NCBI GenBank assembly: GCA_946535225.1
Contig: CAMNDJ010000012.1
Coordinates: 1 to 37,411 of the forward strand
Reading direction: 5' to 3'
From: an uncultured Lachnospiraceae bacterium
Lineage (GTDB): Bacteria; Bacillota; Clostridia; Lachnospirales; Lachnospiraceae
DNA: 37,411 bases
Shown here: one piece after another, positions 3,957 to 37,411 of the stretch
Position numbering within the stretch: position 1 is the stretch's first letter
How the letters are laid out: each line of letters begins with the position of its first letter
Made by a program: the position numbers and the translations under genes
Notes under the pieces: generated by a model
Databases searched by the model: none
Told to the model about the DNA's origin: nothing
Seen by the model: the letters and a program-made list of their open reading frames with translations, nothing else

Positions 3957-4021
3957 TAATATTACGACTATGCGGTCATGATCGGGATGCGCTTAAACAG
4001 ACCGGTCAAAGGGGTTATTTG

Positions 4022-16321: not shown

Positions 16322-16322
16322 G

Positions 16323-18190: not shown

Positions 18191-18197
18191 GTAAAAA

Positions 18198-20989: not shown

Positions 20990-20993
20990 TAAT

Positions 20994-21110: not shown

Positions 21111-21122
21111 TGAAGGATTAAC

Positions 21123-23081
21123 ATGAAACTCAGTTTTGCTTTTGACAATTTCAGACTGTTATATGCCGGTATCGCCACATTTATGTGGATAGTCAGCCTT
21201 ATCCTTTCCGCAGAGTACATGAAGCACTATGAGAGGAAGGGAAGATATTTCTTCTTCACTCTTTTTACGTATTTTGCGACTCTCGGGGTGTTCTTATCCG
21301 GTGACCTGTATACCATGTTCATATTCTTTGAGGCCATGAGTCTTGCATCCTATGTGTGGGTGGCCTTTGATGAACGTGAGGAGTCGTTAAGAGCGGCAGG
21401 AACCTATCTTGCGGTGTCCGTGATAGGCGGACTGATCATGCTGATGGGACTGTTCCTTCTGTATGATGCCGTTCTCGAAGTGATGGGCAATATAGCTAAC
21501 CCTCTTGATGTATCCAATCTCGCCCTCCTGTACGGAACATCCGATATTCTCGGTGATCCCGGTCTTCCGCACAGAATATGGGCAGCCGGTATCTGCATGC
21601 TCATAGGATTCGGCGCCAAGGCAGGTGCTTTTCCGATACATATCTGGCTTCCCAAGGCGCATCCCGTTGCACCGGCACCGGCATCGGCTCTTTTGTCGGG
21701 AATACTGACCAAGACGGGAATACTCGGTATTCTGATGCTCTCAAGATATATATTTGCACCGGTTTCAAGAAATGATGATATGTGGGCGGCAATAATACTC
21801 ATCATCGGAGTATGCACCATGGCATTAGGAGCGATACTTGCGCTTTTCTCGGTCAATATCAAGCGCACTCTTGCCTGCTCTTCCGTATCGCAGATAGGCT
21901 TCATATTGACGGGCATAGGGACGGCAGATCTGTGCACCGACGAACTGGCGATAAGCGGAAGTCTTCTGCATATGGTCGGACATTCGCTTTTCAAACTCAT
22001 ACTATTCTCGGTGGCCGGCGTGATCTTTATGAACATACACAAGCTGGATCTTAACGATATAAGAGGCTTCGGACGACGCAAGCCTCTGCTCAATGCGATC
22101 TTCTTATGTGCTGCTCTTGGCATTGCCGGGATCCCCGGATTAAACGGCTATATCAGCAAGACGCTCATTCACGAAGGAATAGCGCATCTGAGGATGTACA
22201 CGGCTCTTTTAAACAGCAGTGGGATCGAAACAATCTTATCTTATGACGTCGTTACCGTGATCGAATGGGTATTCTTAATAAGCGGCGGCTGTACCTTGGC
22301 CTATATGCTCAAGCTCTATATCTGTGTGTTTATTGAAAAAAACACAGACTCTGAGTTGCAGGCTGTATACGATGAGCACAGGGATTACATGAATCCTTTT
22401 ACGGGAGGAGCGCTTGTGGTCTCAGCCACAGTTATACCGGTACTCGGACTTACATCCGGTTACAGTCTTAAGGGTGTAGTCGATATGTGTGCGGACTCTT
22501 TGCGCATAGATACGACGGCGGAATACTATCTGGAACACTTCTTTACATGGGAATGTTTAAAAGGCGGTCTCATTTCAATCGCCATCGGCTTAATAATCTA
22601 TTTCGGCATAATAAGGATATGCATGATGAATGATGACAGGACCGAATATATCGATCTGTGGCCTAAGTGGATGGATCTTGAGAATGCCGTATACAGGCCC
22701 GTGATCCTGTATGCGATCCCGTTTGTACTGACGGTGATATGCAGATTCTTTGATAACCTTGTTGATGCTCTGATATGTCTGTTAAGAGACGGGATATTCA
22801 AGGACAGCAAGCAGCAGGAAGAACTGGCGGAAGGCAACCGCTTCACCTATATCCTCGGTGTTATCGCCGGAAGGCTCTCAAGACTTAAGAGGCGCATCCT
22901 AAAAGCGAAGGGGCGTACTGTTGGCAAACCCGTCAATTATGTTCACAGATTTGCCATGGATTACGAGAGTTTCAAGGAAAGCCGGACTCTGATCTTCAGG
23001 AGTATGTCCTTTGGTCTTATGCTGTTCTGTCTGGGCCTTGTTCTTACTGTTGTGTATATTTTCATCACAAGGTTGTGGTAG
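21123..23081 (+). CDS. Antiporter-like subunit 4 with C-terminal extension (NuoL/HyfB-type)
   Basis: The 652-residue protein has a NuoL/M/N-family core with E70 (FIFFEAMSLASYVW), K166 (GAKAGAFPIHIWLPKAHP) and K197. An extension of about 170 residues follows, containing further membrane helices, an amphipathic basic stretch (RLSRLKRRILKAKG) and a final transmembrane segment. Such tails in NuoL form a lateral helix bridging several pump subunits, a plausible role here. AAGGA (21113-21117) precedes ATG 21123. It is separated from subunit 3 by the palindrome cluster. Confidence 0.87.
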   Translation: MKLSFAFDNFRLLYAGIATFMWIVSLILSAEYMKHYERKGRYFFFTLFTYFATLGVFLSGDLYTMFIFFEAMSLASYVWVAFDEREESLRAAGTYLAVSVIGGLIMLMGLFLLYDAVLEVMGNIANPLDVSNLALLYGTSDILGDPGLPHRIWAAGICMLIGFGAKAGAFPIHIWLPKAHPVAPAPASALLSGILTKTGILGILMLSRYIFAPVSRNDDMWAAIILIIGVCTMALGAILALFSVNIKRTLACSSVSQIGFILTGIGTADLCTDELAISGSLLHMVGHSLFKLILFSVAGVIFMNIHKLDLNDIRGFGRRKPLLNAIFLCAALGIAGIPGLNGYISKTLIHEGIAHLRMYTALLNSSGIETILSYDVVTVIEWVFLISGGCTLAYMLKLYICVFIEKNTDSELQAVYDEHRDYMNPFTGGALVVSATVIPVLGLTSGYSLKGVVDMCADSLRIDTTAEYYLEHFFTWECLKGGLISIAIGLIIYFGIIRICMMNDDRTEYIDLWPKWMDLENAVYRPVILYAIPFVLTVICRFFDNLVDALICLLRDGIFKDSKQQEELAEGNRFTYILGVIAGRLSRLKRRILKAKGRTVGKPVNYVHRFAMDYESFKESRTLIFRSMSFGLMLFCLGLVLTVVYIFITRLW

Positions 23082-23110
23082 TTGTAAAAAATAGTCAAAT
23101 TTGTTATAAT
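23082..23110 (+). promoter_or_regulatory. Sigma-A promoter of the signalling block
   Basis: TTGTAA (23082-23087) and TATAAT (23105-23110) have a 17-base spacer and begin one base after the stop codon of the last antiporter gene. Transcription would start near 23117, leaving a leader of about 100 bases before ATG 23218. Confidence 0.75.
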
Positions 23111-23134
23111 TTATGCAGTGTTTATGTGTTTGAA

Positions 23135-23203
23135 CCTGCATTGTATCAGAGGAAAGCAGAGAGCTTTCCTCTGTTAGTATTATCCGCAGGATCTGTAGCG
23201 GAT
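23135..23203 (+). promoter_or_regulatory. Structured leader of the PAS-kinase gene
   Basis: A perfect 11-bp hairpin, CAGAGGAAAGC (23147-23157) and GCTTTCCTCTG (23163-23173), lies in the leader. CCTGC (23135-23139) can close an outer stem with GCAGG (23186-23190). Alternatively ATCCGC (23182-23187) can pair with GCGGAT (23198-23203), which excludes the outer stem and lies next to the ribosome binding site (AGAGGGG, 23206-23212). No T run follows, so this is not a standard terminator. A related hairpin with the same AGAGAGCTTTCC arm lies in the gpx leader (3217-3238). Confidence 0.5.
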
Positions 23204-23217
23204 CAAGAGGGGCATCT

Positions 23218-24648
23218 ATGGAGCAGTTATCGGAGAACAGATTATATGCGCGCAAGATAGCCGACACACTGTTTGAACTTCTCATCAAATTCAATAGCAG
23301 CGGAGAGATCGGATTTGCCAATGAAGTCGCGTACAATGTGCTTATGTATAACAGCATGGAAGAGACGAACATAGCCGATATATTTCCGGGCATGTTCATG
23401 ATCGAGGACGGCAAGTTCATAAGCCGTGAACCGGCGGACGGCCGCATGATCTCTACGAATGCATACAGAAGCAACAATACCTGCTTTGAATCCGAGATAA
23501 GGATACTTAAGGACGAAGGGCCCGCGGGCGGATATATTCTCGTCGGGAGAGACGTGTCCGGCAGAGAGCGCATGATGCGTGAGCTTAAGGCAGCCCAGAA
23601 CAGCGGAGAGACCCTAAGCAAGGTCAAGGACGAATTCGTTGCTACAGTGACACATGAGCTCAGAACTCCTGTCAATGGGATCCTCGGCAATATCAAGGAT
23701 CTTATGAGCAAGGAGCAGGATCCCGACGCACTGTACACGATGGAAATGATCGAGAAGAGCTGCGCCGATATGAATGCCCTTATCAATAACATCCTGGATT
23801 TCTCCAAGCTCGAAGCGGGCAAGTTCGAACTTGAGGAAAGAGAATTCTCTCTTCACAACATGATCGATTATGTCAAGCGTAATCATGTCAACAAGATAAG
23901 GGAGAAAGGGCTGGATTTCTTTGTTACGGTCTCACCGGATATTCCGGACAGGTTGGTCGGAGATGAGTTAAGACTTGAACAGGTGCTCAATAACCTGTTA
24001 TCCAATGCGGCCAAGTTCACTACGGTCGGCAAGATCATGTTAGAGGTCGTGACCACGGCCAGAGCGGGAGAGAAGATAGAACTCTTCTTTATGGTGGTGG
24101 ATACCGGTATCGGAATAGCCGACAAGGACAAGGACAAGCTGTTCAAGGATTTCTCTCAGGTTGATGCATCGATCTCGAGGAAGTACGGCGGAACGGGACT
24201 GGGTCTTAACATAAGCAAGAAACTCGTCAATCTCATGGGAGGAGACATATCCGTGGACAGCATGCCGGGCAAGGGATCGAATTTCAACTTCTCGGTATGG
24301 CTCAGTGTTCCGAGAAGTGAAGGAGATATGTTCGTTGATGATTTCCATGTGGATCCCGAGACCATCGCGGACAGACAGATGCAGAACATCACTGCCGATA
24401 TGTCGACCACATTCGGATCTGCAGAGAACCGTGAAGAGATAGAGAAACGCATAATGAAACTCACTTTGTGCGTGGAGATGGATACATGGGACAAGGCTGA
24501 GATGTTTGCGGATGCAGTCAAGCAGCTGACCATAGGAGCGCCCAAAGAAGTTACTACCGCCGCGTTGCGGCTTAAGATGGCTGTACAGAAGGAGAACAGG
24601 GAGAAGACCGTTGAATCGATAGAGGCATTGCGGCTTCTGTTGGTGTGA
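23218..24648 (+). CDS. Cytoplasmic PAS-domain sensor histidine kinase
   Basis: The 476-residue kinase has a PAS-like sensor (about 1-115), a HisKA dimerisation domain with phospho-acceptor H146 (VTHELRTPVNG) and a HATPase domain (about 255-385) with NLLSNAAKF, DTGIGI and GGTGLGL. No membrane segment is present, so the signal is intracellular. A helical C-terminal segment of about 75 residues (400-476) follows. It resembles a four-helix HPt-like bundle but has no HxLKGSA-type histidine, so it is probably not a phosphotransfer site. It begins a block of six closely spaced signalling genes and probably serves the receivers that follow. Confidence 0.9.
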   Translation: MEQLSENRLYARKIADTLFELLIKFNSSGEIGFANEVAYNVLMYNSMEETNIADIFPGMFMIEDGKFISREPADGRMISTNAYRSNNTCFESEIRILKDEGPAGGYILVGRDVSGRERMMRELKAAQNSGETLSKVKDEFVATVTHELRTPVNGILGNIKDLMSKEQDPDALYTMEMIEKSCADMNALINNILDFSKLEAGKFELEEREFSLHNMIDYVKRNHVNKIREKGLDFFVTVSPDIPDRLVGDELRLEQVLNNLLSNAAKFTTVGKIMLEVVTTARAGEKIELFFMVVDTGIGIADKDKDKLFKDFSQVDASISRKYGGTGLGLNISKKLVNLMGGDISVDSMPGKGSNFNFSVWLSVPRSEGDMFVDDFHVDPETIADRQMQNITADMSTTFGSAENREEIEKRIMKLTLCVEMDTWDKAEMFADAVKQLTIGAPKEVTTAALRLKMAVQKENREKTVESIEALRLLLV

Positions 24649-24666
24649 TCCTAAGAAGGAGGATGT

Positions 24667-25743
24667 ATGGCGGATAATAGTATGAACGCCCAGTACAGGG
24701 GCAAGGTTCTGATAATTGACGATGTGGAAGTCAACAGATTTGTATTGCGCAATATCATATCGGAGATGGGATATCAGCCTATCCTTGCGGAGAACGGAGT
24801 TCAGGGCCTTAAAGTACTGCAGAAATGCGAACCCGAACTGATACTATTAGATATCTCGATGCCTGAGATGGGCGGATATGAATTTGCCTCGATAGTCAAA
24901 TCCAACACGGACACAAGAGATATTCCGATAGTATTCATCTCGGCATATGACGAAGTCGATGATATAGTCAAGGGATTTGAGATCGGCGGTGAGGACTACA
25001 TCACCAAACCTTTCATCCCGGAGGTGGTCAAGGCAAGAGCCGGAGTGCATCTGAAGTTCCACGAGACCAGGCGGGACCTGATGGAGACCAACAGAAGACT
25101 TCAGACAATGGTCAACAGTCAGTTAAGGCAGATCGAGGAAGAGAAGAGAGGCGTGCTGTATGCGCTGGCCAATCTGGCAAGGCGTAACTCCCTGTACGAG
25201 GAGAGCTTTATAGAGAGGCTTCAGTATAACTGCCGATTGATCGCCCAGGCCATGCAGTTAGCAGGGATATACGAAGACGTAGTCACGGATACTTTTATCA
25301 ACAATATAGAGATCGCCGCACCTCTGTGTGACATAGGAAATGTGGCCGTGCCTAAGGAGATACTGCAGAAGAAGGATGTGCTCACCCCTGAAGAGAGACT
25401 CAGGATGCAGACGCATACCACGGTCGGTGCAAGGATACTTAAGGACTTTGCCTTATCGAGTGAGTATAGCGAATTCGTCCAGATGGCGACAGACATAGCC
25501 AATTATCACCATGAGAACTGGAACGGAACGGGTTATCCCGCGGGGAAGAAGGGAGATGACATTCCGTTGGCTGCACAGATCGTGACGGTGGGCAATGTAT
25601 ATTGTGCCCTCACTGCCGAGAGAGTGTACAGAGTATCCTACACCAAGGAAGAGGCGTTAAGGATCATCGGGGCGGATGCCGGAGAGAAGTTCAATCCACA
25701 GATATATACGGTATATCGCAAGATATCCAAACAGCTTAAATAG
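24667..25743 (+). CDS. Response regulator with degenerate HD-GYP domain
   Basis: The 358-residue protein has an intact receiver (about 12-130: D18/D19, phospho-acceptor D62 in LLDISMP, K114 in ITKPF), a coiled linker (135-165) and an HD-GYP-type domain (about 165-355). The HD-GYP signature HHExWxGxGYP is present (281-291), but other metal ligands are changed. HD reads CD (C221-D222), DIGK reads DIGN (N225), the usual aspartate near residue 310 is N310, and the early HxxR-type histidine appears to be F181. It therefore probably does not hydrolyse c-di-GMP and may bind it or act by protein contact. It lies 18 bases after the kinase gene. Confidence 0.88.
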   Translation: MADNSMNAQYRGKVLIIDDVEVNRFVLRNIISEMGYQPILAENGVQGLKVLQKCEPELILLDISMPEMGGYEFASIVKSNTDTRDIPIVFISAYDEVDDIVKGFEIGGEDYITKPFIPEVVKARAGVHLKFHETRRDLMETNRRLQTMVNSQLRQIEEEKRGVLYALANLARRNSLYEESFIERLQYNCRLIAQAMQLAGIYEDVVTDTFINNIEIAAPLCDIGNVAVPKEILQKKDVLTPEERLRMQTHTTVGARILKDFALSSEYSEFVQMATDIANYHHENWNGTGYPAGKKGDDIPLAAQIVTVGNVYCALTAERVYRVSYTKEEALRIIGADAGEKFNPQIYTVYRKISKQLK

Positions 25744-25791
25744 ATACTGAAACTAAACTGAGAAAGGGAATACGGAAACAGGAGGTATACA

Positions 25792-26187
25792 ATGAGGATT
25801 TTATTAGCAGAGGATGATTTCGTCACAAGGAAGTTTATGATGAATTTCCTGTCCAAGTACGGGGATTGCGACGTTACCGTCGATGGTATGGAAGCGGTGG
25901 ATGCTTTCATGATGGCGATGGAAGAGAACGATCCGTACGACCTGGTGTGTCTGGATATCATGATGCCGGTAATGGACGGTTACCAGGCACTCATAGGAAT
26001 CCGTAATATTGAGAAGGAGAAGGGGATCCCTCAGGACAAGGCTGTCAAGGTGATAATGGCGACGGCACTCAATGAGGAGAAAAATGTCAAGATGGCCTTT
26101 GATCTCGGTTGTACCATCTATTCGGGTAAGCCGATCAATCAGGACAGATTTGAACAGGCACTCAAAAAACTCGGACTTATTGAATAG
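25792..26187 (+). CDS. Stand-alone receiver (CheY-like response regulator)
   Basis: The 131-residue protein is a single receiver domain with acidic residues at 7-9 (AEDDF), phospho-acceptor aspartate in CLDIMMPVMDG, the T/A region ATALNEE and the conserved lysine in SGKPIN. There is no output domain, so it probably acts as a phosphate carrier or by protein binding, as CheY and Spo0F do. An AGGAGG site precedes ATG 25792. The stop is 11 bases before the CheA-like kinase start, suggesting the two are direct partners. Confidence 0.92.
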   Translation: MRILLAEDDFVTRKFMMNFLSKYGDCDVTVDGMEAVDAFMMAMEENDPYDLVCLDIMMPVMDGYQALIGIRNIEKEKGIPQDKAVKVIMATALNEEKNVKMAFDLGCTIYSGKPINQDRFEQALKKLGLIE

Positions 26188-26198
26188 AGGTGACACTG

Positions 26199-27893
26199 AT
26201 GTCATTTGAATTGAACAGAGATGATATGCTCGACACCTATGTGTTGGAGACTACTCAGATATTGGAGGAGCTTCAGGCACTGGTGCTGAGATTTCAGGAT
26301 GCGGATGCGTTCTCCGAAGATGCGATCGCCGAGATATTCAGGTATATGCATACTCTAAAGGGCTCTGCGGGTTTTATGATGTTTGAACAGATGCATATGC
26401 TCTCTCATAAGACGGAGGATGTCTTTTACTATCTCAGAGAACATAAGCCTGCATCTGTTCCGCAGAAGGAACTCATAGAACTGGTGCTTAAAGTCTCTGA
26501 TTTCTTTCAGGGTGAGTTAGAGAAGCTCTCCGAAGGACAGGATGCCGATACGGATGCCGGGGATCTCATTGATGAACTGAACACATTCTTAGAGAAGATC
26601 AGTGCATCCGATGAAGACAAGAAGAATGAGAAACTGACGGAAACTGCGGCAGAGAGTTCCGATACCCGTATCTATATCGCACCCAAGGATACCAAGGCTA
26701 ATCATTACTTCCAGATATACATCGTGTATGCCAGGGATACCAAGATGGCCAATGTCCACGCATACAAAGTCGTGAGACTGCTTAAGGATATCGCTGTGGA
26801 TATCAAATATACCCCGGAGGATATACTCACTTCCGAAGCAAGCGGAGATGAGATACTCGATAAGGGATTCAAGATATTACTCAAGACCGGATGCGCAAGA
26901 AAGAAGCTTAAGAAACTCGTCAGTGAAGGTTATGAGACCGAAGCCATAGAGATCAAGGAGATCGATGCCGCAAGATTTGAAGCGGGATTTAAGCTCTTCG
27001 GAGTGGATGCGCCTGTTGTAGCCAAGGTGACCAAGGATGACAAGGAATATGCACCCGGTGATTTCGTGGTTCATAACGGTGCTCCCGGACAGGGCAGATT
27101 CTTAGCCAAGGATACCGAGCAGAAGAAAGATAAGGGTACTCATATCAGTGTGGAAGTGTCTGATATGGACAGACTTGCCGATCTTGTCATCAAACTGTCC
27201 AAGGCTCAGGGTAAGCTCATTGATGACAAGGAAGTAAGAGATGCCGGACTTAAGCTTGAAGCGTTCGACAGGAATGCGGACAAGATAAGAGTCATAACGT
27301 CAGAGATGCAGGATCTGGTAACTTCCATGAGAATGGTATCTTTCACCAATATATTCTTAAGGATGAACCGTGTGATATTCGAGGCATCAAGAAAACTCGG
27401 CAAGGATATCGAGTGCGTGATCGAAGGCGACGAAGTAAAGGCCGACAGAGGTATCATCGAACATATATCGGATCCGCTCATGCATATGGTGCGTAACTGT
27501 GCCGATCACGGCATAGAAGACGGTAATGAGAGAATGCTCGCAGGCAAACCCATGAGAGGCAGGATAACACTTAAGGCTGAAGAATCCGACGGCGAACTCA
27601 GAGTATCCGTTAGCGATGACGGTGCAGGACTTAACAGGGAGAAGATACTTAAAAAGGCTCATGACAAGGATCTTATACCTGCGGACAGACCTGATGAAGA
27701 TTATACAGACAGCGAAGTATGGCAGCTCATCACCATACCGGGATTCTCGACCAACAGTGAAGTCACAGAGTTCTCCGGAAGGGGAGTCGGAATGGACGTG
27801 GTCGTCAATACCGTGGAGACGATAGGCGGCAAGCTCAAGATAGAGAGTACAGAGGGCAAAGGAAGCACTATGACCATGATCTTCCCCGTATAG
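26199..27893 (+). CDS. CheA-like histidine kinase lacking the CheW-like domain
   Basis: The 564-residue protein has an HPt domain with H51 (MHTLKGSAGF) and a region of about 150-290 resembling the CheA P2 response-regulator-binding fold. A short dimerisation helix pair (about 320-390) follows, then a CheA-type ATPase domain (about 390-564) with HMVRNCADHGIE, DDGAGL and GRGVGMDVV. It ends at TMTMIFPV, exactly where the P5 CheW-like domain should begin. Without P5 it cannot join chemoreceptor arrays in the normal way. GTG 26190 is in frame, but ATG 26199 has AGAGG eight bases upstream. Confidence 0.9.
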   Translation: MSFELNRDDMLDTYVLETTQILEELQALVLRFQDADAFSEDAIAEIFRYMHTLKGSAGFMMFEQMHMLSHKTEDVFYYLREHKPASVPQKELIELVLKVSDFFQGELEKLSEGQDADTDAGDLIDELNTFLEKISASDEDKKNEKLTETAAESSDTRIYIAPKDTKANHYFQIYIVYARDTKMANVHAYKVVRLLKDIAVDIKYTPEDILTSEASGDEILDKGFKILLKTGCARKKLKKLVSEGYETEAIEIKEIDAARFEAGFKLFGVDAPVVAKVTKDDKEYAPGDFVVHNGAPGQGRFLAKDTEQKKDKGTHISVEVSDMDRLADLVIKLSKAQGKLIDDKEVRDAGLKLEAFDRNADKIRVITSEMQDLVTSMRMVSFTNIFLRMNRVIFEASRKLGKDIECVIEGDEVKADRGIIEHISDPLMHMVRNCADHGIEDGNERMLAGKPMRGRITLKAEESDGELRVSVSDDGAGLNREKILKKAHDKDLIPADRPDEDYTDSEVWQLITIPGFSTNSEVTEFSGRGVGMDVVVNTVETIGGKLKIESTEGKGSTMTMIFPV

Positions 27894-27933
27894 GAAGGTG
27901 AGTCAGTAAACGTTCCTCTTATGAAGGGCTAAG

Positions 27934-30360
27934 ATGGATAATAAGGAATATGATCTGATAAGAAGAAAGAAAATAGAGAATATCGTGCTTGCGGTATTCA
28001 CGCTCTATGCCATGTGCGTGAGCCTTATGACATATGACAGTATGCAGAGATGGATAATCTATGTCATTGAGGCTTCGCTCGTCATCGTGTGGATGAGCCA
28101 TATCGCAGGTGTCAGGAGCTATGTCTTCAGAGCAGGTCTGTGTGCGTTTGCTTCCGAGTTCTGCGTATTCCTGTATTGTATATTCGTCAATAATGATATA
28201 GAACCAATGATCTCGATCATAGGTCTCACCATCATCATCGGTATATATGAGATACCGAGACTGCTGATATTCCCTATAGTCACATCGACACTGATTCTCT
28301 TACATCATATTTTCATAAGCAAGACCATGCCCATGAGGACGATGGATGAAGTGTTCAGGTCACTGTTGGAGATAGCAGCCATATACATCACGATATTCGT
28401 CGTGGATTTCCTCTTAAGAGAAGAGGCGGGCAGCAAGACCAGGCTGCTTGATACGATCGAAGAACTCAAGATAGCCGAGCGAAGCAAGGACGATTTCCTT
28501 GCCAACGTATCTCATGAGCTGCGCACTCCCATCAATACCATATGCGGTATGAGTGAGATAGCTCTGGCAGAGGCAAGATCACAGATTGTAAGAGATAACC
28601 TGGAGGATATCAAGAATGCGGGCAGAGGCCTTCTGTCGGTCGTGAGCGATATCCTTGATTACTCGGAACTGAGTCGGGGAAGGTTCGTGTTAGATGAGGA
28701 GAAATACAATATCACATCTACGATCAATGATGTGGTGAATCTATGCATCGCCAAGATAGGCGATAAAAAGCTTGAGCTCATCGTCAACTGTGATCCGACG
28801 ATCCCCAGCCAGCTCATAGGAGATGAACCCAAGCTTAAGCGCGTGATATATAACCTCCTTGAGAATGCGATCAAATACACTCAGGAAGGTTATGTGATAG
28901 TCGATGTCAGCAAGAGAACAGAGGAATACGGTATCAATCTCTGCGTTAGGATCAAAGACACCGGTATAGGAATGCGACCTGAGAATCTCAACAAGATCTT
29001 CACCGATTTCACACAGATAAACAGCGGACGGGACAGAAGAGAAGGCGGCATAGGCTTAGGTCTTACGATCTCCAGGGCGATAATAGAACTGATGGACGGA
29101 TTCATCACCATAGATTCCAAGTATGGCGTGGGAACCGAGATACAGTTCACCGTACCTCAGAAGGTCGGCGACATCACTCCTGTCGGGAGTATCGATTCCA
29201 GACTTACTGCAGTCGGCATTGAGACAGTGGATGATGATACATACGGCGCAGGTGCTGTCAGAGTCACGGGACGTTCCGCAAGCTTAGAGCCCATTGGTCA
29301 GATGATCATGCCGAAGGCTCATATAATGATAGTCGATGACAGTTTCATGAACCTCAAGGTCATCGAGGGACTGTTAAAACCATATAGGGTCAAGGTAACG
29401 ACAGCTTTAAGCGGAAAAGAGGCTTTGGAGAAGTTAGTCAGCCGCGATTACGATTTCATCTTCATGGATCATATGATGCCGGAGATGGACGGAGTGGAGT
29501 GTCTTAACAGGATACGTTCGAGAGACATACCTTTCTACAAGAACGTTCCCGTGATCGCGCTTACCGCCAATGCGGTGGCCGGTGCGAGAGAGATGTTCTT
29601 AGAGCAGGGATTCACGGATTTCATTTCCAAGCCTGTGGAGATCTCCGTACTTGAGAAGATACTCAAGAAATACATACCCAAGGACAAGATCAGTTATTCT
29701 GATGATGAGACAGAGGAAGAAGATACACAGGTGACAGCAGGACAGCTTGTCATCGGTGATCTTAATGTCAAGAAGGGACTGTTATATTGCGGCTCTGTAG
29801 AGAATTACAAGAACGTTCTCAATGTCCATGCAACTAACGGACCGGACAATATAGACAAGATCAGGAATCTCTTCAAAGAGAAGAATATCACTGACTATAC
29901 CATATACATCCATGCGCTCAAGAGTTCGATGGCAAGTATCGGAGCCGAGACTCTATCAGAGATGGCCAAAGATATGGAGCAGGCCGGCAAGGACGGCAAC
30001 ATCGAATATATCGAAGCTCACCACGAAGAACTCATGGCGGAGTACGAGCGTATAATAGCGATGCTGCTCGGCCAGGATTCGATGCAGATGGAGATCACGG
30101 ATGATCTGATGGAAAGTACGGACACGGTTCCGATATCGGATGAGAAGCTTGATGATTATCTTGCTGCATTTGAAGATGCGGCCTATACTTTCGTGCCTGC
30201 CAACATGTTACGGATACTTGATGAACTCAGGGCATACAGTTATAACGGGCATCCTCTCATGCCTCAGCTGATACCCATCAGGAAGAAAATCGAGATGTCT
30301 GACTATATGTCGGCAATTGATGCGCTTACGAACATAAGAGAGCGATACAGGAGCAGATAG
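27934..30360 (+). CDS. Membrane hybrid histidine kinase with receiver and HPt domains
   Basis: The 808-residue protein has about six N-terminal membrane helices (15-162) and a HisKA domain with H194 (NVSHELRTPIN). A HATPase domain (about 290-408) carries NLLENAIKY, DTGIGM and GGIGLGL. A receiver (about 462-580) has D512 and K566, and an HPt domain (about 635-715) has H660 in IHALKSSMAS. A C-terminal stretch of about 90 residues is helical and unrecognised. All four phosphorelay steps up to an HPt output are in one chain, so phosphate could pass on to the stand-alone receivers of the same block. No periplasmic sensor domain is visible; the helices themselves may sense. Confidence 0.92.
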   Translation: MDNKEYDLIRRKKIENIVLAVFTLYAMCVSLMTYDSMQRWIIYVIEASLVIVWMSHIAGVRSYVFRAGLCAFASEFCVFLYCIFVNNDIEPMISIIGLTIIIGIYEIPRLLIFPIVTSTLILLHHIFISKTMPMRTMDEVFRSLLEIAAIYITIFVVDFLLREEAGSKTRLLDTIEELKIAERSKDDFLANVSHELRTPINTICGMSEIALAEARSQIVRDNLEDIKNAGRGLLSVVSDILDYSELSRGRFVLDEEKYNITSTINDVVNLCIAKIGDKKLELIVNCDPTIPSQLIGDEPKLKRVIYNLLENAIKYTQEGYVIVDVSKRTEEYGINLCVRIKDTGIGMRPENLNKIFTDFTQINSGRDRREGGIGLGLTISRAIIELMDGFITIDSKYGVGTEIQFTVPQKVGDITPVGSIDSRLTAVGIETVDDDTYGAGAVRVTGRSASLEPIGQMIMPKAHIMIVDDSFMNLKVIEGLLKPYRVKVTTALSGKEALEKLVSRDYDFIFMDHMMPEMDGVECLNRIRSRDIPFYKNVPVIALTANAVAGAREMFLEQGFTDFISKPVEISVLEKILKKYIPKDKISYSDDETEEEDTQVTAGQLVIGDLNVKKGLLYCGSVENYKNVLNVHATNGPDNIDKIRNLFKEKNITDYTIYIHALKSSMASIGAETLSEMAKDMEQAGKDGNIEYIEAHHEELMAEYERIIAMLLGQDSMQMEITDDLMESTDTVPISDEKLDDYLAAFEDAAYTFVPANMLRILDELRAYSYNGHPLMPQLIPIRKKIEMSDYMSAIDALTNIRERYRSR

Positions 30361-30372
30361 GAAAGAACCGAT

Positions 30373-33087
30373 ATGATAAATAAGATCAGGGAATTGATGA
30401 GCAGTGACAACAGGAATATCAGGGAGAAACTCTTCGTGATAGTATGTCTCGAAGGAATAATCGGGGCATTATTCTGTCTGTTGGAGTGCATTTCCATAAG
30501 ATCGGGATGGCCCACCTACATAATCATAGGCCTGACTCTGGTCATAATTCCGTGGGCGGTCAATTACATATGTGATAACGGCGGAAGGGAACTTCCCATA
30601 GCGGTCGTGACGATCTGGATGGATTTCGTCACCTTCCCTACCATATTCTTAACCTGTGGCGGTGTAAAGAGCGGTTCGAGTTGTTGGCTGGCAATGGGTA
30701 TCATATACATCTTCCTTGTATATAGAGGTAAGATGCTCAAGATCCTGGTCACCGCCACCATACTTATCGATTCTGCGTGCTATGCGGTCGCATTCTTAAG
30801 GCCTGAGATCGTCAAGCCTCTCAATACGGAAGCGGCTCAGTATATAGATTCTCTGTTTGGCGCGATCGCTGTCGGTGTTACCGCAGGTCTGGTCTTCTCT
30901 TTCAGAAGGGCAGGGTACGGCAGGGAGAATGCCATGGCCATCAGGCAGCGCAATGAGATCGACAGGATCAATGCTTCAAGAGAGAAATTCTATGCCAATT
31001 TCTCACACGAGATCAGAAACCCCATCAATGCGATAATCGGTCTTAACGAACTCAATATCAGAAACAGCAAGGATAAGGAGATAACGAGAAACTCAGAAGC
31101 CATAGCAGGTTCGGGCAAACTTCTGTTAAGCATAGTCAATGATATCATGGATCTGTCTCAGATGGAGAGCAAGAGCATGAAGCTTGCCTCATCTCCGTTT
31201 GACAGTTCCGATCTGTTAAACAAGATAATGGATATGATATCTGTGAGAGCTAAAGAGAAGAACCTTGAGCTGATACTCGAGGCAGACCCCGAGATACCCG
31301 CTGTACTTGTGGGAGATGAGAGAAGGCTGATACAGATCCTCATCAATCTCATGACAAATGCCGTCAAATATACCAAAGAAGGTCATGTCAAGTTAAGCGT
31401 GATCTCAGAGAAAAAGGAAGATGATAATGTCACCCTCAAGGCTTCCATAAGTGATACGGGCATAGGAATAGAGAAGGAGAACTTAGAGCATCTCTTCGAG
31501 ACCTTTGCACAGTTTGACAGAAATGAAAACGGAGATATAGAAGGTAACGGCTTGGGACTGCCGATAGCATATTCGCTCACACAGATAATGGGCGGTAAGC
31601 TTACCGTGGACAGCGTATACGGCAGCGGTTCTGTTTTTACCGTGGAAGTCACGCTCGGATATGAAGGCGATGAAGTCATGGGTGCGAGCACCTATGAAGA
31701 GATATCTGAAAGCAGAGGAGAATCTGAGGGAGGATATGTAAGGAGCTTTGAGGCCAGCAAGGCCAGGATACTGGTCGTTGATGATGATGCTCAGAACAGG
31801 AGCATCATTACGGGACTGCTTAAGGATACCAAAGTCACCGTATCTGAGGCAGGCAGCGGAGAAGAGGCGCTTAAGCTTACTGCTGCCAACAGATATGATG
31901 TGATCGTGGTCGACTATCTTATGCCGGGAATGAACGGTTCTGAGGTCCTTGAGGCTGTGAGATCGCAGTCCGGAGGTAAGTGTAAGGACAGTGCGATAAT
32001 AGCTTTAACAGGTGCCACGCTTGATTCCGGCAAACACAACAATGCTCTCTACGAGTTCGATATGGTCCTGACCAAGCCGGTTGAATATACCGTGTTGGAG
32101 GATGCGATCGCATCGAGCCTTCCTGCGGAACTCATAGAATACAGGGATAATTCGAGAAACCGGACCGGTGCGCTCTATACGAGAGTAATGCCCAAGAAAA
32201 AGAGACGTCTTCGTATCACTACGGAGTCGATCTGCGATCTGCCTGAAGATGTCATAAGGAAATTTGATATCGGAATAATGTATCTGTATATCAGAACTGC
32301 CCGTGGAAGATTCATGGACACCGTAGAGATAGACAGTATGGATCTGATGGGCAAGCTTACGGACAGCAACAGTGAGGTTCATCCTGACGGGGCTACGGTT
32401 GAAGAATACGAAAGATTCTTCAAGAAGGAACTTGAATCGTCAGAGGATATCATACATCTAAGCTTCAGCTCCAGGATGGGAGAGAGCTGCAACAGGGCCA
32501 TGGAAGCAGCCAAAGGATTCTCACATGTGCATGTCATAGACAGCGGACTGATATCTTCGGCCCTGGGACTTTTGGCGATGATAGCTGCCGGCTGGGCAGG
32601 TTCCGACAGAAGTGTGGATGAGATCTGTGATGATATCGGCAAGATAAGCAAGCATATAGTAATGAGTTATGTACTTCCGTCGGCGTCTATTTATTCAGAC
32701 TACGGCAAACTGACCAAGAAGACCGGTGAACTCTATGACATCATGAATATACATCCGGCCATAAGTCTCTCCGGCGGTAAGTTAAAGCAGACAAGGATAT
32801 ACCGCGGAGACATGGAGAGCGTTATATACAGCCACATCAAGACGACACTGCTCTTAGCAGGCCGTATGGATCTGAGAGTACCCGTTATAGTGACTCATGT
32901 GGCGCTTTCTCCGAGGATCCAGAACAATATAATGAGTGAGATGCGCGGATCCATTCCGGATAATGCACTTATGTTAACCAAGTCCAGTGTATCATCTGCC
33001 GGTAATATCGGACAGGGAGGCATGGGAATTGCTTACCTTAAGATGACTCATTTCACCGATTGGAAGGATCTCGGTGTACAGATATAA
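30373..33087 (+). CDS. Membrane hybrid histidine kinase fused to a DegV fatty-acid-binding domain
   Basis: The 904-residue protein has about six membrane helices (20-178) and a HisKA domain with H212 (NFSHEIRNPIN). A HATPase domain (about 310-430) carries NLMTNAVKY, DTGIGI and GNGLGL, and a receiver (464-580) has D514 and K568. After a basic linker, residues 613-900 form a DegV-type (EDD) domain: RITTESICDLP, HLSFSSRMGESCNRAM, VHVIDSGLISSALGLL and a final GNIGQGGMGIAYL. Free-standing DegV/FakB proteins bind one fatty acid and present it to the FakA kinase. Here the domain could be the kinase's output or a lipid sensor. It starts 12 bases after the previous hybrid kinase. Confidence 0.9.
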   Translation: MINKIRELMSSDNRNIREKLFVIVCLEGIIGALFCLLECISIRSGWPTYIIIGLTLVIIPWAVNYICDNGGRELPIAVVTIWMDFVTFPTIFLTCGGVKSGSSCWLAMGIIYIFLVYRGKMLKILVTATILIDSACYAVAFLRPEIVKPLNTEAAQYIDSLFGAIAVGVTAGLVFSFRRAGYGRENAMAIRQRNEIDRINASREKFYANFSHEIRNPINAIIGLNELNIRNSKDKEITRNSEAIAGSGKLLLSIVNDIMDLSQMESKSMKLASSPFDSSDLLNKIMDMISVRAKEKNLELILEADPEIPAVLVGDERRLIQILINLMTNAVKYTKEGHVKLSVISEKKEDDNVTLKASISDTGIGIEKENLEHLFETFAQFDRNENGDIEGNGLGLPIAYSLTQIMGGKLTVDSVYGSGSVFTVEVTLGYEGDEVMGASTYEEISESRGESEGGYVRSFEASKARILVVDDDAQNRSIITGLLKDTKVTVSEAGSGEEALKLTAANRYDVIVVDYLMPGMNGSEVLEAVRSQSGGKCKDSAIIALTGATLDSGKHNNALYEFDMVLTKPVEYTVLEDAIASSLPAELIEYRDNSRNRTGALYTRVMPKKKRRLRITTESICDLPEDVIRKFDIGIMYLYIRTARGRFMDTVEIDSMDLMGKLTDSNSEVHPDGATVEEYERFFKKELESSEDIIHLSFSSRMGESCNRAMEAAKGFSHVHVIDSGLISSALGLLAMIAAGWAGSDRSVDEICDDIGKISKHIVMSYVLPSASIYSDYGKLTKKTGELYDIMNIHPAISLSGGKLKQTRIYRGDMESVIYSHIKTTLLLAGRMDLRVPVIVTHVALSPRIQNNIMSEMRGSIPDNALMLTKSSVSSAGNIGQGGMGIAYLKMTHFTDWKDLGVQI

Positions 33088-33112
33088 GAAAAGCGCACAC
33101 TTTTTTTCTTAT
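33084..33112 (+). terminator. AT-rich hairpin at the end of the signalling block
   Basis: ATAAGAAAA (33084-33092), which contains the stop codon, pairs perfectly with TTTTCTTAT (33104-33112). The stem is weak and has no separate T run after it, so termination may be partial. It lies just upstream of the sigma-28-type promoter. Confidence 0.4.
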
Positions 33113-33118
33113 CAGCTA

Positions 33119-33145
33119 TAAAGTATTGCGTGAAACATCCGATAA
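33119..33145 (+). promoter_or_regulatory. Sigma-28 (FliA/SigD)-type flagellar promoter
   Basis: TAAA (33119-33122), then 15 bases, then TCCGATAA (33138-33145) match the flagellar consensus TAAA-N15-GCCGATAA at all but one position. It is about 40 bases before flgM. Control of the anti-sigma factor gene by its own target sigma factor is the usual feedback arrangement. Confidence 0.85.
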
Positions 33146-33187
33146 ACATTATGAAGCCAAAAGTTTATCCCAAGGAGGTGGGACATT

Positions 33188-33463
33188 ATGCGTATAGAAG
33201 CATATAATCAGGTACAGCAGCTTTACAGAAGCAGCCAGCCTAAGCAGGTCAAGAAAGAGGCCAAAGCAAGCTTCTCCGATCAACTTCAGATATCAAGCGT
33301 AGGCAAGGATATCCAGGTTGCAAAGCAGGCAGTCGCAGGTGCATCCGATGTACGTGAGGACCTTGTGGCATCTGTTAAGGAGCGCATCGATAACGGCACA
33401 TACAGTGTTGATGCAGAGAGCTTCGCAGCTAAGCTGTACGAAAGATTCAGCGCTACGATCTAG
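33188..33463 (+). CDS. flgM: Anti-sigma-28 factor FlgM
   Basis: The 91-residue protein matches FlgM: a disordered polar N-terminal half and a C-terminal sigma-binding half with VREDLVASVKERIDNGTYSVDAESFAAKLYER. FlgM holds the flagellar sigma factor inactive until the hook is complete and FlgM is exported. A strong AAGGAGG site precedes ATG 33188. It is the first gene of the operon, followed by flgN and flgK. Confidence 0.92.
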   Translation: MRIEAYNQVQQLYRSSQPKQVKKEAKASFSDQLQISSVGKDIQVAKQAVAGASDVREDLVASVKERIDNGTYSVDAESFAAKLYERFSATI

Positions 33464-33473
33464 GAGGTAATCG

Positions 33474-33992
33474 GTGGCCAGTCTGATGGAGAATCTTATC
33501 GATAATCTTGAGAAAGAAAATGAAGCCTATTTAAGGCTCCTTAAGTTATCCATGGACAAGACCCCGGTTATCATCAGCTCTGATCTGGACGCACTGGCTA
33601 AGATCACGGATGATGAACAGTCAGTCGTTAATGAGATCAATACTCTTGACCATAAGCGTCAGGAGAACATGAAGGACATAGCAGGCGTTATTAACAAGGA
33701 TGTTGATAGCTTGAAAGTGGTCGACCTTATCGAGATGTTAAAAGGAAGACCAAATGAACAGAACAGGTTGGCAGAGATATATGATAAGCTGCGTGACACA
33801 CTTTCTCAGATGAAGAGAGTCAACGAACAGAACAGACAGCTTATCGAGAGTTCACTGGAGATGGTGCAATTCGACATGAATGTTCTGCAGGCCTACAGAG
33901 CCGCTCCCGAGACGGCCAATTACACATCAGGTGCTTACAGTGCAGGAACCTATATGGGCGTAGACAAGGGAGCGTTTGACGCGAAACAATAA
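33474..33992 (+). CDS. flgN: FlgN-family flagellar export chaperone
   Basis: The 172-residue protein is mainly helical, with long heptad-like stretches (about 1-135) typical of FlgN and a flexible C-terminus rich in Thr, Ser, Gly and Tyr. FlgN escorts the hook-associated proteins FlgK and FlgL to the export gate; flgK follows immediately. The start is GTG 33474, with AGGAGG at 33462-33467. It follows flgM by 10 bases. Confidence 0.85.
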   Translation: MASLMENLIDNLEKENEAYLRLLKLSMDKTPVIISSDLDALAKITDDEQSVVNEINTLDHKRQENMKDIAGVINKDVDSLKVVDLIEMLKGRPNEQNRLAEIYDKLRDTLSQMKRVNEQNRQLIESSLEMVQFDMNVLQAYRAAPETANYTSGAYSAGTYMGVDKGAFDAKQ

Positions 33993-34021
33993 CATCCGGC
34001 GGTTAGTAACGAGGTAAGCTT

Positions 34022-35764
34022 ATGCCATTGATGGGAAGCCTGTATATAGGAGTGTCCGGTCTCCAGACCAGTCAGAACGCACTTAATACAACTGCACACA
34101 ATATATCTAATACCGACACCACCGGTTATGTGCGCCAGCAGATACTTCAGGGTACTGCTGCATATAATACGATCAAGACGGATTACAAGTCTGTATCTAA
34201 TCAGCAGATAGGTTTAGGTGTCGTATATTCCAAGACAAGACAGGTACGTGACGTCTTCTTAGACGCCACCTATAGAAGAGAATCAGGCAGGAGCTCTTTC
34301 TATGAGGTATCGGCAGATGCCCTCGGAGAGATCGAGAGCCTTCTTGATGAAATGAACGGCGAGACTTTCCAGGAGTCTATCCAGGATCTTTGGACTTCGG
34401 TCCAGGAGATGGCTAAGGACCCGAGCAGCGCTGTTACGCAGGGACTCTTTGTTGAGAGATGTTCAGAATTCCTTGCCCGCAGTCAGTCAGTGTACGACGG
34501 GCTCTGTGATTATCAGACAAGTCTCAATGAAACAGTAAAGAAGCATACAAACCGTATCAACGACATCGCTCAGCAGATCAAGGCACTGAACGACGAGATA
34601 CGTATGATAGAGATCTCCAATACGAAGGATTTCGGTATCTCCTTCGAGAGAGCAAACGACCTTAGAGATACACGTAATGCCCTTATAGATGAACTTTCGA
34701 CCTACGGCAATATCCAGTATGAAGAAGATGTTGACTGTACGGTATGGGTACAGCTTGAGGGAGAGGATCTTGTAAGACGAGAGATAGCTTATTCGCTCGG
34801 TATATATGAAGATCCCAAGACAGGATTCTATACACCCTTCTGGGAGAAGAACGCAAGGTTTACGGTCGATCCCGATACGGGTGAGAGGAAATACTCTCAG
34901 GAGGAAGTTGAGAAAGCCAAGGTATACGATCTTAACAGAGTGATATCTTCGGATCTGAATACCGATATAGGAGCCCTTAAATCAGCGCTTCTTGCCAGAG
35001 GAGATCACAAGGCCGATTACACGGATCTTATGCCGGACAGATATGACTACGAGATATCTCAGTCGGTCTGCATGAACATCATGGCAGAGTTCGATCAGCT
35101 GGTACACGGTATAGCAACATCGATCAACAAGGTCATATCGGATGCAGCGATAGAAGCCAAGAATATCAATCCCTCGAGCACATATCTGATGACGATCGAT
35201 CCGGTCAGCGGAAAGGAAGTACCGATACAGGTATTTAAGAAGATAGCATCTGAAGGATATGACAATGCAGGTGTATATAATAAGGAACAGACGGGTACAT
35301 ACGATCCTGCGACAGGAGAGGTACAGGGTTATCAGGTAGAATCCCTCTACACCACCACGAATCTTCAGATAAATGTAGAACTCTTAAGACAGCCTACGAA
35401 GTTAGGTTTTGTCAAGATAGACGGTCAGGTTGACTACGCAACGATGGAGAAGATGAAGGCGGCGTTCGAGTCCGAAGACATGACGCTTAATCCCAACGTC
35501 AAGAAGAAGTCTTCATTCGTGGACTACTACGGAGACTTAGTAAGTCAGGTAGCTAATTCCGGAGCCGTATATAAGAGTATCATCGACAGTCAGCAGAAGA
35601 CAGTAATGGCAACATCCAATGCCAGAGAGCAGGTCATCGGAGTATCACAGGATGAGGAGATGACCTTCATGGTCAAGTTCCAGAATGCATATAATGCATC
35701 TTCAAGATATATCAATGTAGTTGACGATATGTTAGAGCACATAATCAATACGCTCGCAGTCTAA
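34022..35764 (+). CDS. flgK: Flagellar hook-associated protein FlgK (first copy)
   Basis: The 580-residue protein begins with the FlgK/rod-hook signature LYIGVSGLQTSQNALNTTAH and NISNTDTTGYVRQ. It ends with the matching C-terminal coiled region (SNAREQVIGVSQDEEMTFMVKFQNAYNASSRYINVVDDMLEHIINTLAV). The central part is the variable domain. FlgK joins the hook to the filament through FlgL. ATG 34022 has GAGGTAAG upstream. A second FlgK-like gene follows after 47 bases. Confidence 0.92.
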   Translation: MPLMGSLYIGVSGLQTSQNALNTTAHNISNTDTTGYVRQQILQGTAAYNTIKTDYKSVSNQQIGLGVVYSKTRQVRDVFLDATYRRESGRSSFYEVSADALGEIESLLDEMNGETFQESIQDLWTSVQEMAKDPSSAVTQGLFVERCSEFLARSQSVYDGLCDYQTSLNETVKKHTNRINDIAQQIKALNDEIRMIEISNTKDFGISFERANDLRDTRNALIDELSTYGNIQYEEDVDCTVWVQLEGEDLVRREIAYSLGIYEDPKTGFYTPFWEKNARFTVDPDTGERKYSQEEVEKAKVYDLNRVISSDLNTDIGALKSALLARGDHKADYTDLMPDRYDYEISQSVCMNIMAEFDQLVHGIATSINKVISDAAIEAKNINPSSTYLMTIDPVSGKEVPIQVFKKIASEGYDNAGVYNKEQTGTYDPATGEVQGYQVESLYTTTNLQINVELLRQPTKLGFVKIDGQVDYATMEKMKAAFESEDMTLNPNVKKKSSFVDYYGDLVSQVANSGAVYKSIIDSQQKTVMATSNAREQVIGVSQDEEMTFMVKFQNAYNASSRYINVVDDMLEHIINTLAV

Positions 35765-35768
35765 ACGA

Positions 35769-35783
35769 TTCGCCGACGGCGAA
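35769..35783 (+). repeat. Short hairpin between the two flgK genes
   Basis: TTCGCC (35769-35774) and GGCGAA (35778-35783) form a six-bp stem with a three-base loop immediately after the first flgK stop. There is no T run, so a terminator is unlikely; RNA processing or reduced read-through is possible. Confidence 0.4.
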
Positions 35784-35811
35784 GCGGAAAGATATCGAAA
35801 GGAGTCAGTAG

Positions 35812-37411
35812 ATGCCTTCACAGTTTTTCGGATTAAATATCGCATATACAGGTCTGTTGAACGCCAATGCCGGCCTCAACACCACAGCCAATAACATATC
35901 GAATGCAGAGACAGAGGGCTACAGCCGTCAGGGTATCCATTCCGAAGCTGCAGAGGCCTTAAGAGTCTTCACTACATACGGTTGTGCGGGTGCGGGTGTT
36001 GAGACACTCTCTATTGAGCGTATCCATGACGAATTCTATGATAACAAGTACTGGGCCAATAATGACAAGGCCGGCCAGTATGAGATGAAGGATTATTACA
36101 TGAAGCAGATAGAGGATTATTTCAGAGATGATTCCACTATCGAAGGCTTCACCACCACCTTCAATAAGATGATGACGGCTCTTGCAGAGGTCAAGAAGAA
36201 TCCCGCCAACATCTCTACCAAGGCACAGTTTGTCGGAATGGCCGACAATCTCTGTGAATACTTCAATTCCATGGCTAATTCCATGGAGCAGGTTCAGAAG
36301 GACGTCAATTCCGAGGTCAAGTTAAAAGTCGACGAGATCAACTCCATCGCGAGCGAACTCGCTACCATCAATAAGCAGATCAATGTTATCGAGATAGGCG
36401 GCGGAACGGCCAATGAACTGCGAGACAAGAGAACACTTCTGATAGATCAGCTTTCTTCTATAGTTAGTGTGGAAGCAAGGGAATACCCGATCGTGGATTC
36501 CAATGATCCCGACCGTAAGACCGGCGGCAACATGTATATCGTCAAGATAGCAGGAGGCCAGACTCTTGTGGATACCGATCAGTACAATACTCTCGAAGTA
36601 CTGGCGCGTACGTCTTCGGAGAAGGTCAACCAGTCGGATATAGACGGTCTGTATGATGTGTATTGGATATCGGATGCCAACCATGCGGTATACGAGAAGA
36701 TCGTCAAGGAAGGTCTTAAGGAGGATCCGGATTTCAATCTCGAGTGGAATGATTTCGTTAAGTTCGGATACAGGACCGATAAGATGAAATATGATCCGTG
36801 CTCAGAGTTCAACCTCTACAATGCCAGTCTCGGCGGCCAGCTAGAGGGCCTCATCCAGATGAGAGACGGTAATAACTCAGAGAACTTCACGGGCAAGATC
36901 ACAGAAGTCGGTGCCGGTACGACACTAAATGAAGCGAATCAGACGATAAGACAGATCAGAGTACAGATAGACGAGAAGACCAAGAGCTATCTTACGGATC
37001 TTAACAAATGTACTCTTTCAGACTCAGGCGGAACTATCACTCTCGCCAACCAGAAGTTCTATTATGACAGCTGGAAGTTCGAATATGACAGCGCTGAAGA
37101 TAAGTATTATTACACTATAGATATCAACGAGAGTAAGAGCCGTGCCATGGTACAGCAGTCGACCACAGGCAAGGAAGCTGACATAGGTATCCCGATCAAG
37201 TATCAGGGAGTTCCCTATTATCAGCAGCAGCTCAACGAATGGTGCAGGATCTTCGGTGCGGCATTCAACAATATCCTTTTGGAAGGTTATACATCCGAAG
37301 GAGACGGCGGAGTCGAGATGTTCGTGGCCAACAAGGCAACCGAAGAAGCTCAGTACATGTTCAGAGACGCCAAGTACGGCAAATATGTTCCGGAAGGCAC
37401 AAGTAATACGG
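35812..37411 (+). CDS. flgK: Second FlgK-like hook-associated protein (partial, runs off the window)
   Basis: The frame from ATG 35812 stays open to the window edge, giving 533 residues. The N-terminus (GLNIAYTGLLNANAGLNTTA, NNISNAETEGYSRQ) and the helical stretch around residues 100-220 (ELRDKRTLLIDQLS) are those of FlgK, but the sequence differs widely from the first copy. The C-terminal coiled region lies outside the window. An AAAGGAG site precedes the ATG. FlgL would normally come next, so this may be a second hook-filament junction protein or a specialised paralog. Confidence 0.88.
   Translation, partial: MPSQFFGLNIAYTGLLNANAGLNTTANNISNAETEGYSRQGIHSEAAEALRVFTTYGCAGAGVETLSIERIHDEFYDNKYWANNDKAGQYEMKDYYMKQIEDYFRDDSTIEGFTTTFNKMMTALAEVKKNPANISTKAQFVGMADNLCEYFNSMANSMEQVQKDVNSEVKLKVDEINSIASELATINKQINVIEIGGGTANELRDKRTLLIDQLSSIVSVEAREYPIVDSNDPDRKTGGNMYIVKIAGGQTLVDTDQYNTLEVLARTSSEKVNQSDIDGLYDVYWISDANHAVYEKIVKEGLKEDPDFNLEWNDFVKFGYRTDKMKYDPCSEFNLYNASLGGQLEGLIQMRDGNNSENFTGKITEVGAGTTLNEANQTIRQIRVQIDEKTKSYLTDLNKCTLSDSGGTITLANQKFYYDSWKFEYDSAEDKYYYTIDINESKSRAMVQQSTTGKEADIGIPIKYQGVPYYQQQLNEWCRIFGAAFNNILLEGYTSEGDGGVEMFVANKATEEAQYMFRDAKYGKYVPEGTSNT

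Follow-up and report, generated by a model that had tools for sequence, protein, structure and literature searches.

The DNA analyzed here (the window) is a stretch of 37,411 nucleotides, positions 1 to 37,411 of contig CAMNDJ010000012.1 in assembly GCA_946535225.1, assigned to an uncultured Lachnospiraceae bacterium. On its plus strand, a single frame of 904 amino acids joins a membrane-bound histidine kinase (HK) and a receiver (REC) to a C-terminal DegV domain, and the gene directly upstream encodes a second hybrid kinase that ends in a histidine phosphotransfer (Hpt) domain. The features of these two genes are:

30373..33087, plus strand: HK-REC-DegV hybrid kinase, 904 amino acids (open ATG-to-stop frame, Pfam domains, orthologues)
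30418..30900, plus strand: N-terminal membrane region, residues 16-176, with five clear hydrophobic segments (hydropathy scan)
30979..31170, plus strand: HisKA domain with the phospho-accepting H212 (Pfam; H212 invariant in 19 aligned rows)
31312..31653, plus strand: HATPase_c domain (Pfam)
31768..32109, plus strand: receiver domain with D514 (Pfam; D514 invariant in 19 aligned rows)
32209..33042, plus strand: DegV/EDD domain of the signalling type, residues 613-890 (Pfam, tree, residue counts)
33004..33006, plus strand: N878, at the place of His270 of FakB1 (residue counts: asparagine in 80/90 signalling, histidine in 46/50 metabolic DegV domains)
27934..30360, plus strand: partner hybrid kinase HK-REC-Hpt, 808 amino acids, 12 bases upstream of the DegV kinase (Pfam)
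29836..30054, plus strand: Hpt domain of the partner, residues 635-707, histidine present in a HALKS motif (Pfam, sequence)

All four domains of the DegV kinase scored above the curated Pfam cut-offs: HisKA at residues 203-266 (E 9.5e-13), HATPase_c at residues 314-427 (E 1.3e-24), Response_reg at residues 466-579 (E 8e-19), and DegV at residues 613-890, the latter spanning model positions 2-279 of 280 with E 1.5e-27 and 97.1 bits versus a cut-off of 27. In a 19-row alignment with relatives, H212, N325, N329, the D361-x-G-x-G motif, D514, T546, and K568 were invariant. The protein has the phospho-accepting histidine, the HATPase N and G boxes, and the receiver aspartate of a hybrid histidine kinase; its H212 kinase core and D514 receiver are intact, and it has no Hpt domain. 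The initial annotation, made from the sequence of the window, had described one frame with these four domains and with H212 and D514 as phospho-sites, all of which was borne out, and six membrane helices, in place of which a simple hydropathy scan gave five clear N-terminal segments. The DegV fold had been called complete with recognizable N- and C-terminal motifs; the domain is indeed of full length, but its C-terminal motif is altered, reading N-I-G-Q-G versus H-x-G in most metabolic DegV proteins. The window DegV domain also passed the NCBIfam model TIGR00762 (103.2 bits versus a cut-off of 99.7), which creates a naming problem, as the kinase may be named after DegV.

The fusion recurs well beyond this contig. 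Eight relatives in other genomes share these domains in frames of 892-908 amino acids, each preceded by an HK-REC-Hpt gene and followed by flgM-flgN-flgK, and a second HK-REC-DegV protein of 895 amino acids is encoded in the window's own genome. Within the genus, the architecture was found in 15/20 genomes, the own genome included; 26 DegV matches sit in open frames of 891-1163 amino acids, every one of them HK-REC-DegV or HK-REC-DegV-Hpt by our own profiles, with Pfam concurring for the 11 scanned. A combined REC+DegV profile (best match E < 1e-115) placed both domains in a single frame in 69/397 genomes of the family, from 61 genera, a count that includes partial matches in genomes G193 and G350 and shortened frames in G182, G199, and G135. 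The order sample gave matches at 1e-70 in 11/295 genomes, each spanning REC+DegV; most of these genomes are also in the family sample and one is from another family; in the phylum sample, 4/398 matched, namely the own genome, two from the same family, and one with a lone DegV. Scoring in the family, order, and phylum samples was limited to 4-5 candidates per genome, and these counts may therefore miss rare forms. Judged from the three samples, the HK-REC-DegV architecture seems restricted to this family and its close relatives.

Among named kinase relatives, those with the best scores (37-40% identity, e.g., L036, L109, and L113; L numbers denote our loci, G numbers our genomes) are from Lachnospiraceae assemblies. 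No DegV domain was found at E 1e-3 when frames of at least 100 amino acids in L036-L115 were searched with a profile. Scans of viral contigs for relatives gave three receiver-only matches in one and none in the next. When plasmids were searched with the DegV domain of the second fusion protein (L126), 56 records matched, each at less than 60% identity, and among the matches listed, ten plasmid records carry the annotation "DegV family protein".

That the frame is an assembly join or a frameshift between two genes, a possibility raised in the initial annotation, might be suspected from the draft state of the genome (129 contigs) and from L214, where kinase and DegV are two adjacent frames. The single-frame REC+DegV proteins throughout the family and the eight close relatives with the same domains and neighbours speak against such an artefact, as does a ratio of nonsynonymous to synonymous substitution rates (dN/dS) of 0.08 across DegV, and we regard its probability as negligible. 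Between relatives G019 and G005, dN/dS was 0.082 for DegV, 0.082 for the receiver, 0.067 for the kinase core, and 0.66 for the linker. By this measure, the DegV domain of the window kinase is under purifying selection and is not decaying; the view of it as a passenger or decaying domain was ruled out by the value of 0.08. The joining of DegV to a phosphorelay kinase is genuine; it recurs and is conserved.

To classify the DegV domain, its residues were compared with those of the FakB fatty acid carriers. Passages of PMC8892158 and PMC9136124 describe Thr62, Ser95, and His270 of FakB1 as part of the hydrogen-bond network of the fatty acid carboxylate, and Arg173 and Arg205 of FakB as fully conserved and required for the action with FakA, Arg173 for phosphorylation and Arg205 for docking to FakA and the membrane. 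These positions were located by motif rather than by alignment to the Staphylococcus aureus protein, and the published neighbours Thr61, Ser63, Ile94, Val204, Leu271, and Gly272 fit the assignment. Thinning of near-copies reduced 152 DegV domains to 140, comprising 90 signalling and 50 metabolic ones. The signalling domains form a separate branch (90 versus 50 rows, SH-aLRT support 99) in a quick tree with midpoint root, and four stand-alone signalling DegV proteins (L206-L209) branch first on their side if the root lies between the two sets. R173 was present in 28/90 signalling versus 50/50 metabolic domains, R205 in 5/90 versus 48/50, and H270 in 2/90 versus 46/50, its place being taken by asparagine in 80/90 signalling domains; all three residues together were kept in 0/90 versus 45/50. 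The window domain has K at R173, R at R205, N at H270, P at Thr62, and S at Ser95, so that of the carrier residues Arg205 is retained and Arg173, His270, and Thr62 are replaced. S872 is present in 99% of the signalling domains, giving a carboxylate-site motif S872 ... N878-x-G. Signalling and metabolic domains further differ by one deleted column and in median length (291 versus 285 residues), with the surplus in the linker at the N-terminal edge. These residues set the domain apart from ordinary FakB proteins.

This comparison bears directly on the proposal that the kinase controls fatty acid uptake, its DegV domain acting as a FakB that passes fatty acids on to FakA under the control of phosphorylation; a kinase that controls fatty acid delivery was one of the functions suggested in the initial annotation. 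The genome does encode FakA (PF13684), the fold is of the FakB type, and the window domain keeps R205. The complete absence of the R173/R205/H270 combination among signalling domains, with K, R, and N in the window, argues against delivery, as do four separate lone DegV genes in the same genome, three of which keep all three residues; one of these three ordinary genes shares a contig with the FakA gene. A delivery function is unsupported by these data and appears very improbable. The remaining lone DegV of this genome (L004, contig 2) has I and Y at the places of R205 and H270 and lies on a long tree branch.

The same residue losses are compatible with a second explanation, in which DegV binds no small molecule and serves as a docking or dimerization module that holds the two kinases together, much as FakA_C acts with FakB. 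FakA_C, according to passages of PMC9136124, has a FakB-related fold without a fatty acid tunnel and serves protein binding; most signalling DegV domains lack the carboxylate histidine and the arginines related to FakA, and each of the four signalling DegV genes that stand alone adjoins an HK-REC-Hpt kinase gene. Signalling domains nevertheless keep the full domain length, whereas FakA_C lost the tunnel-forming insertions, and a new conserved motif (the asparagine and S872) was gained at the carboxylate site. We consider docking a serious competitor, albeit an unlikely one. Less probable still is that DegV acts as a sensor in the same module but responds to a nonlipid metabolite. The changed carboxylate-site residues would allow for this, and flanking metabolic genes vary by locus, with for example a KDPG aldolase gene downstream in L127 and an M20 peptidase gene in L205; several of the matching solved structures, though, are named fatty acid kinase B, the others having only DegV-type or hypothetical names, and positive support for any other ligand is lacking.

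The initial annotation had not noted the partner kinase or its complementary Hpt. The position of the Hpt domain in the two adjoining kinases was evaluated for 87 DegV-kinase genes taken with their flanks. HK-REC-DegV genes sit directly after a same-strand HK-REC-Hpt gene (704-1047 amino acids) in 60/67 cases and never after an Hpt-less HK-REC gene. The other seven were not scorable. The pieces of L190 and L241 contain no gene upstream, and what precedes the DegV kinase is a REC-Hpt fragment in L187 and L227, a REC fragment in L224, a frame with no domain in L202, and another HK-REC-DegV gene for one of the L234 copies. Conversely, among 17 DegV kinases that themselves carry an Hpt (15 HK-REC-DegV-Hpt and two with an N-terminal DegV), 15 directly follow an Hpt-less HK-REC gene (619-687 amino acids) and none follows HK-REC-Hpt, L132 and L229 being not scorable for want of an upstream gene in the piece. 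Outside both groups are L195 (N-terminal DegV, cut by the contig end, Hpt-less partner) and the HK-DegV genes of L196 and L197 (opposite-strand neighbour). The Hpt of the L203 partner was detected by our own profile but missed by Pfam at 0.01. None of the scored loci goes against the complementary pattern; Fisher's exact test gave p = 4e-16, a value that ignores relatedness.

The partner kinase of the window likewise has membrane segments in a hydropathy scan. In 68/82 upstream kinases, 140-159 residues separate kinase core and receiver; judging from its consensus, this region of approximately 140 residues (e.g., in L121) resembles a degenerate receiver, and the window's partner is without it. 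Two DegV-kinase genes per locus were observed in L124 and L234, the L234 pair being directly tandem. L202 (8035-10089) has a shortened HK-REC-DegV frame of 685 amino acids and an overlapping upstream frame of 266 amino acids, possibly a broken gene.

Twelve further loci were taken around high-scoring lone or odd DegV matches. Four of them (L206-L209) hold a DegV gene that stands alone, carries the signalling N motif, and comes directly after HK-REC-Hpt; L214 and L215 have kinase and DegV as separate genes, L217 has a REC-DegV frame at a contig end, and in the remaining five loci, the six DegV genes show ordinary motifs with no kinase gene immediately before them. A signalling DegV is N-terminal in the kinases of three loci (L193, L194, L195); the protein of L193 (3811-8544) is a DegV-dCache-HK-REC-Hpt chain of 1578 amino acids. 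As the same parts are fused in some loci and separate in others, we argue that they work together. The sensor role proposed in the initial annotation fits this picture, in which one type of DegV, be it C-terminal, N-terminal, or encoded by a gene of its own, accompanies one kind of partner kinase.

The two kinase genes are flanked by genes for a REC-HD-GYP protein, a CheY-like, and a CheA-like protein on one side and by flgM-flgN-flgK on the other:

23218..24648, plus strand: further histidine kinase of the cluster with HisKA and HATPase (Pfam; matched in the pieces of 4/8 relatives)
24667..25743, plus strand: REC-HD-GYP response regulator, possible cyclic di-guanosine monophosphate (c-di-GMP) output (Pfam Response_reg and HD_5; the GYP label is our reading)
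25792..26187, plus strand: CheY-like lone receiver, possible output (Pfam)
26190..27893, plus strand: CheA-like protein with Hpt, P2, and HATPase domains, no H-kinase_dim and no CheW domain found (Pfam)
33188..33463, plus strand: FlgM anti-sigma-28 factor (Pfam; downstream in 8/8 relatives)
33474..33992, plus strand: FlgN (Pfam; 8/8 relatives)
34022..35764, plus strand: FlgK (Pfam; 8/8 relatives)

The flagellar genes flgM-flgN-flgK lie downstream in 9/9 window-type loci, the window included. For wider comparison, 94 signalling DegV genes (the 87 kinases and seven stand-alone, split, or cut forms) were set against 24 metabolic ones. The latter comprise 18 from 20 control loci, of which L259 and L264 yielded no DegV gene, plus six from L210-L213 and L216. 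A kinase gene lies at most five genes away in 86/94 signalling versus 3/24 metabolic cases, and a receiver-linked GGDEF, EAL, or HD-GYP gene in 43/94 versus 1/24, counts that are not independent because many of the 94 are close kin. Among the window-type loci, 6/9 have such a receiver-linked c-di-GMP gene within five genes. Promoter and terminator patterns in 22900-36200 were near chance (24 versus 22.3 and 9 versus 7.2), and the ends of the operon are therefore not located.

The CheA-like protein lacks the H-kinase_dim and CheW domains in the window, L119, and L140 by Pfam. CheA proteins with both domains are encoded in L116 and L118, which are of the window type, and in L203, L204, and L257 from other genera; in the four loci scanned at the next position (L116, L118, L203, and L204), genes for CheW and a methyl-accepting protein come after CheA (Pfam). 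L116 and L118 thus hold complete CheA, CheW, and methyl-accepting proteins where the window has the reduced CheA-like protein; in the window's genome, CheW and methyl-accepting proteins are encoded elsewhere. Antiporter-type subunits (MnhB, MbhE, Proton_antipo_M) are encoded upstream of the kinase cluster (15335-23081), and an additional c-di-GMP gene encodes a GGDEF-EAL protein (4019-5758).

Taken together, we favour, at a probability of roughly 55%, that HK-REC-DegV is one half of a two-kinase phosphorelay that shares a single Hpt domain, with DegV as a dedicated ligand sensor and c-di-GMP or motility as output. The phosphoryl group would pass from H212 to D514 within HK-REC-DegV and from there to the histidine of the Hpt domain in the upstream partner. 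This Hpt would then serve the response regulators of the cluster, the REC-HD-GYP protein (24667-25743) and the CheY-like receiver (25792-26187), which would in turn set the c-di-GMP level or motility. The DegV domain would have derived from FakB-type fatty acid carriers with loss of the residues for FakA-dependent phosphorylation, and its ligand state would determine how far the neighbouring receiver, or the kinase, is phosphorylated. The sequence shows the architecture, its recurrence, the pairing, the Hpt complementarity, the residue loss, and the purifying selection; transfer between the two kinases, the regulators addressed, and binding of a ligand, presumably a fatty acid or a similar amphiphile, are what we infer. 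A fatty acid is suggested by the fold only. In this probable Lachnospiraceae bacterium, the module possibly serves lipid-sensing signalling.

Several observations weigh against the shared-relay interpretation. No receiver-linked c-di-GMP domain was found within five genes of 51/94 signalling DegV genes, including 3/9 of the window type, and the output may therefore vary. The carboxylate motif is less conserved in window-type loci than elsewhere, T62 being P, A, or Q in 9/9 and H270 being N in 4/9, and a single-sequence AlphaFold model of the window DegV region alone reached a mean predicted local distance difference test score (pLDDT) of 31. The HK-DegV proteins of L196 and L197 have no adjoining partner gene. 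In the partner tree (74 rows, with L195 scored as own-Hpt although its frame ends at the contig end), the Hpt state changes at least twice, with a single change not rejected (p-AU 0.1). The Hpt swap rests on at most two evolutionary events, and the rows are therefore not independent cases. The L196 (5975-8560) and L197 (5814-8375) proteins have no recognized receiver, and each gene is followed by one for 459 amino acids and then by a GGDEF gene.

In the open-access literature on DegV with two-component, phosphorelay, or motility themes, no description of a DegV-histidine kinase or receiver fusion was recognized, which agrees with the initial annotation, where none was known. A census from 2015 that covers kinases, Hpt proteins, and receivers (PMC4558063) does not use the word DegV in its main text, and passages of PMC7773995, PMC3146951, and PMC12688256 do not mention DegV kinases. 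The parts of the relay are already known; what appears new is the sensor branch and the paired, Hpt-complementary gene order. DegV/FakB proteins are known as carriers in lipid metabolism, and a branch turned into a signalling domain would represent a new receptor class. Many REC+DegV carriers, in our estimation, live in guts among fatty acids. The occurrence of Hpt on one partner or the other offers a concrete test case for shared relays.

Compared with FakB, the window domain is the same over its full length but is fused to a kinase, and the FakA-related and carboxylate residues are mostly lost in its signalling relatives. FakA_C provides an example of an EDD fold that does not bind fatty acids and has taken another role (passages of PMC9136124); it is without the tunnel-forming insertions, whereas the signalling DegV is of full length. 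In the RpfC-RpfG system, as described in passages of PMC5391125, a membrane HK with REC and Hpt acts with an HD-GYP regulator, and a fatty acid, the diffusible signal factor (DSF), is the signal. The window genes at 27934-30360 and 24667-25743 share this layout, with a membrane HK-REC-Hpt and a REC-HD-GYP protein in one cluster. RpfC senses DSF by a 22-residue N-terminal sensor, whereas DegV is here located on the second kinase, and the likeness is one of layout, no search for the DSF synthase RpfF having been made. It is conceivable, though we hold this broader view tentatively and with the odds against it, that a family-wide fatty acid-sensing phosphorelay exists as a counterpart of DSF/RpfC-RpfG, in which a FakB-derived receptor (His-to-Asn exchange, FakA-contact arginines lost) and an Hpt-sharing kinase pair set c-di-GMP and flagellar motility. 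For the sharing of an Hpt domain in a kinase pair, LadS-GacS of Pseudomonas aeruginosa would be the precedent: there, as in CblS-CblT of Burkholderia cenocepacia, an Hpt-less hybrid kinase uses the Hpt of a second kinase (passages of PMC4866733). The window pair likewise consists of an Hpt-less hybrid kinase and a kinase with Hpt and would transfer phosphoryl groups between them, but unlike in these systems the two genes are adjacent, the Hpt occurs on either partner, and one partner carries a DegV domain.

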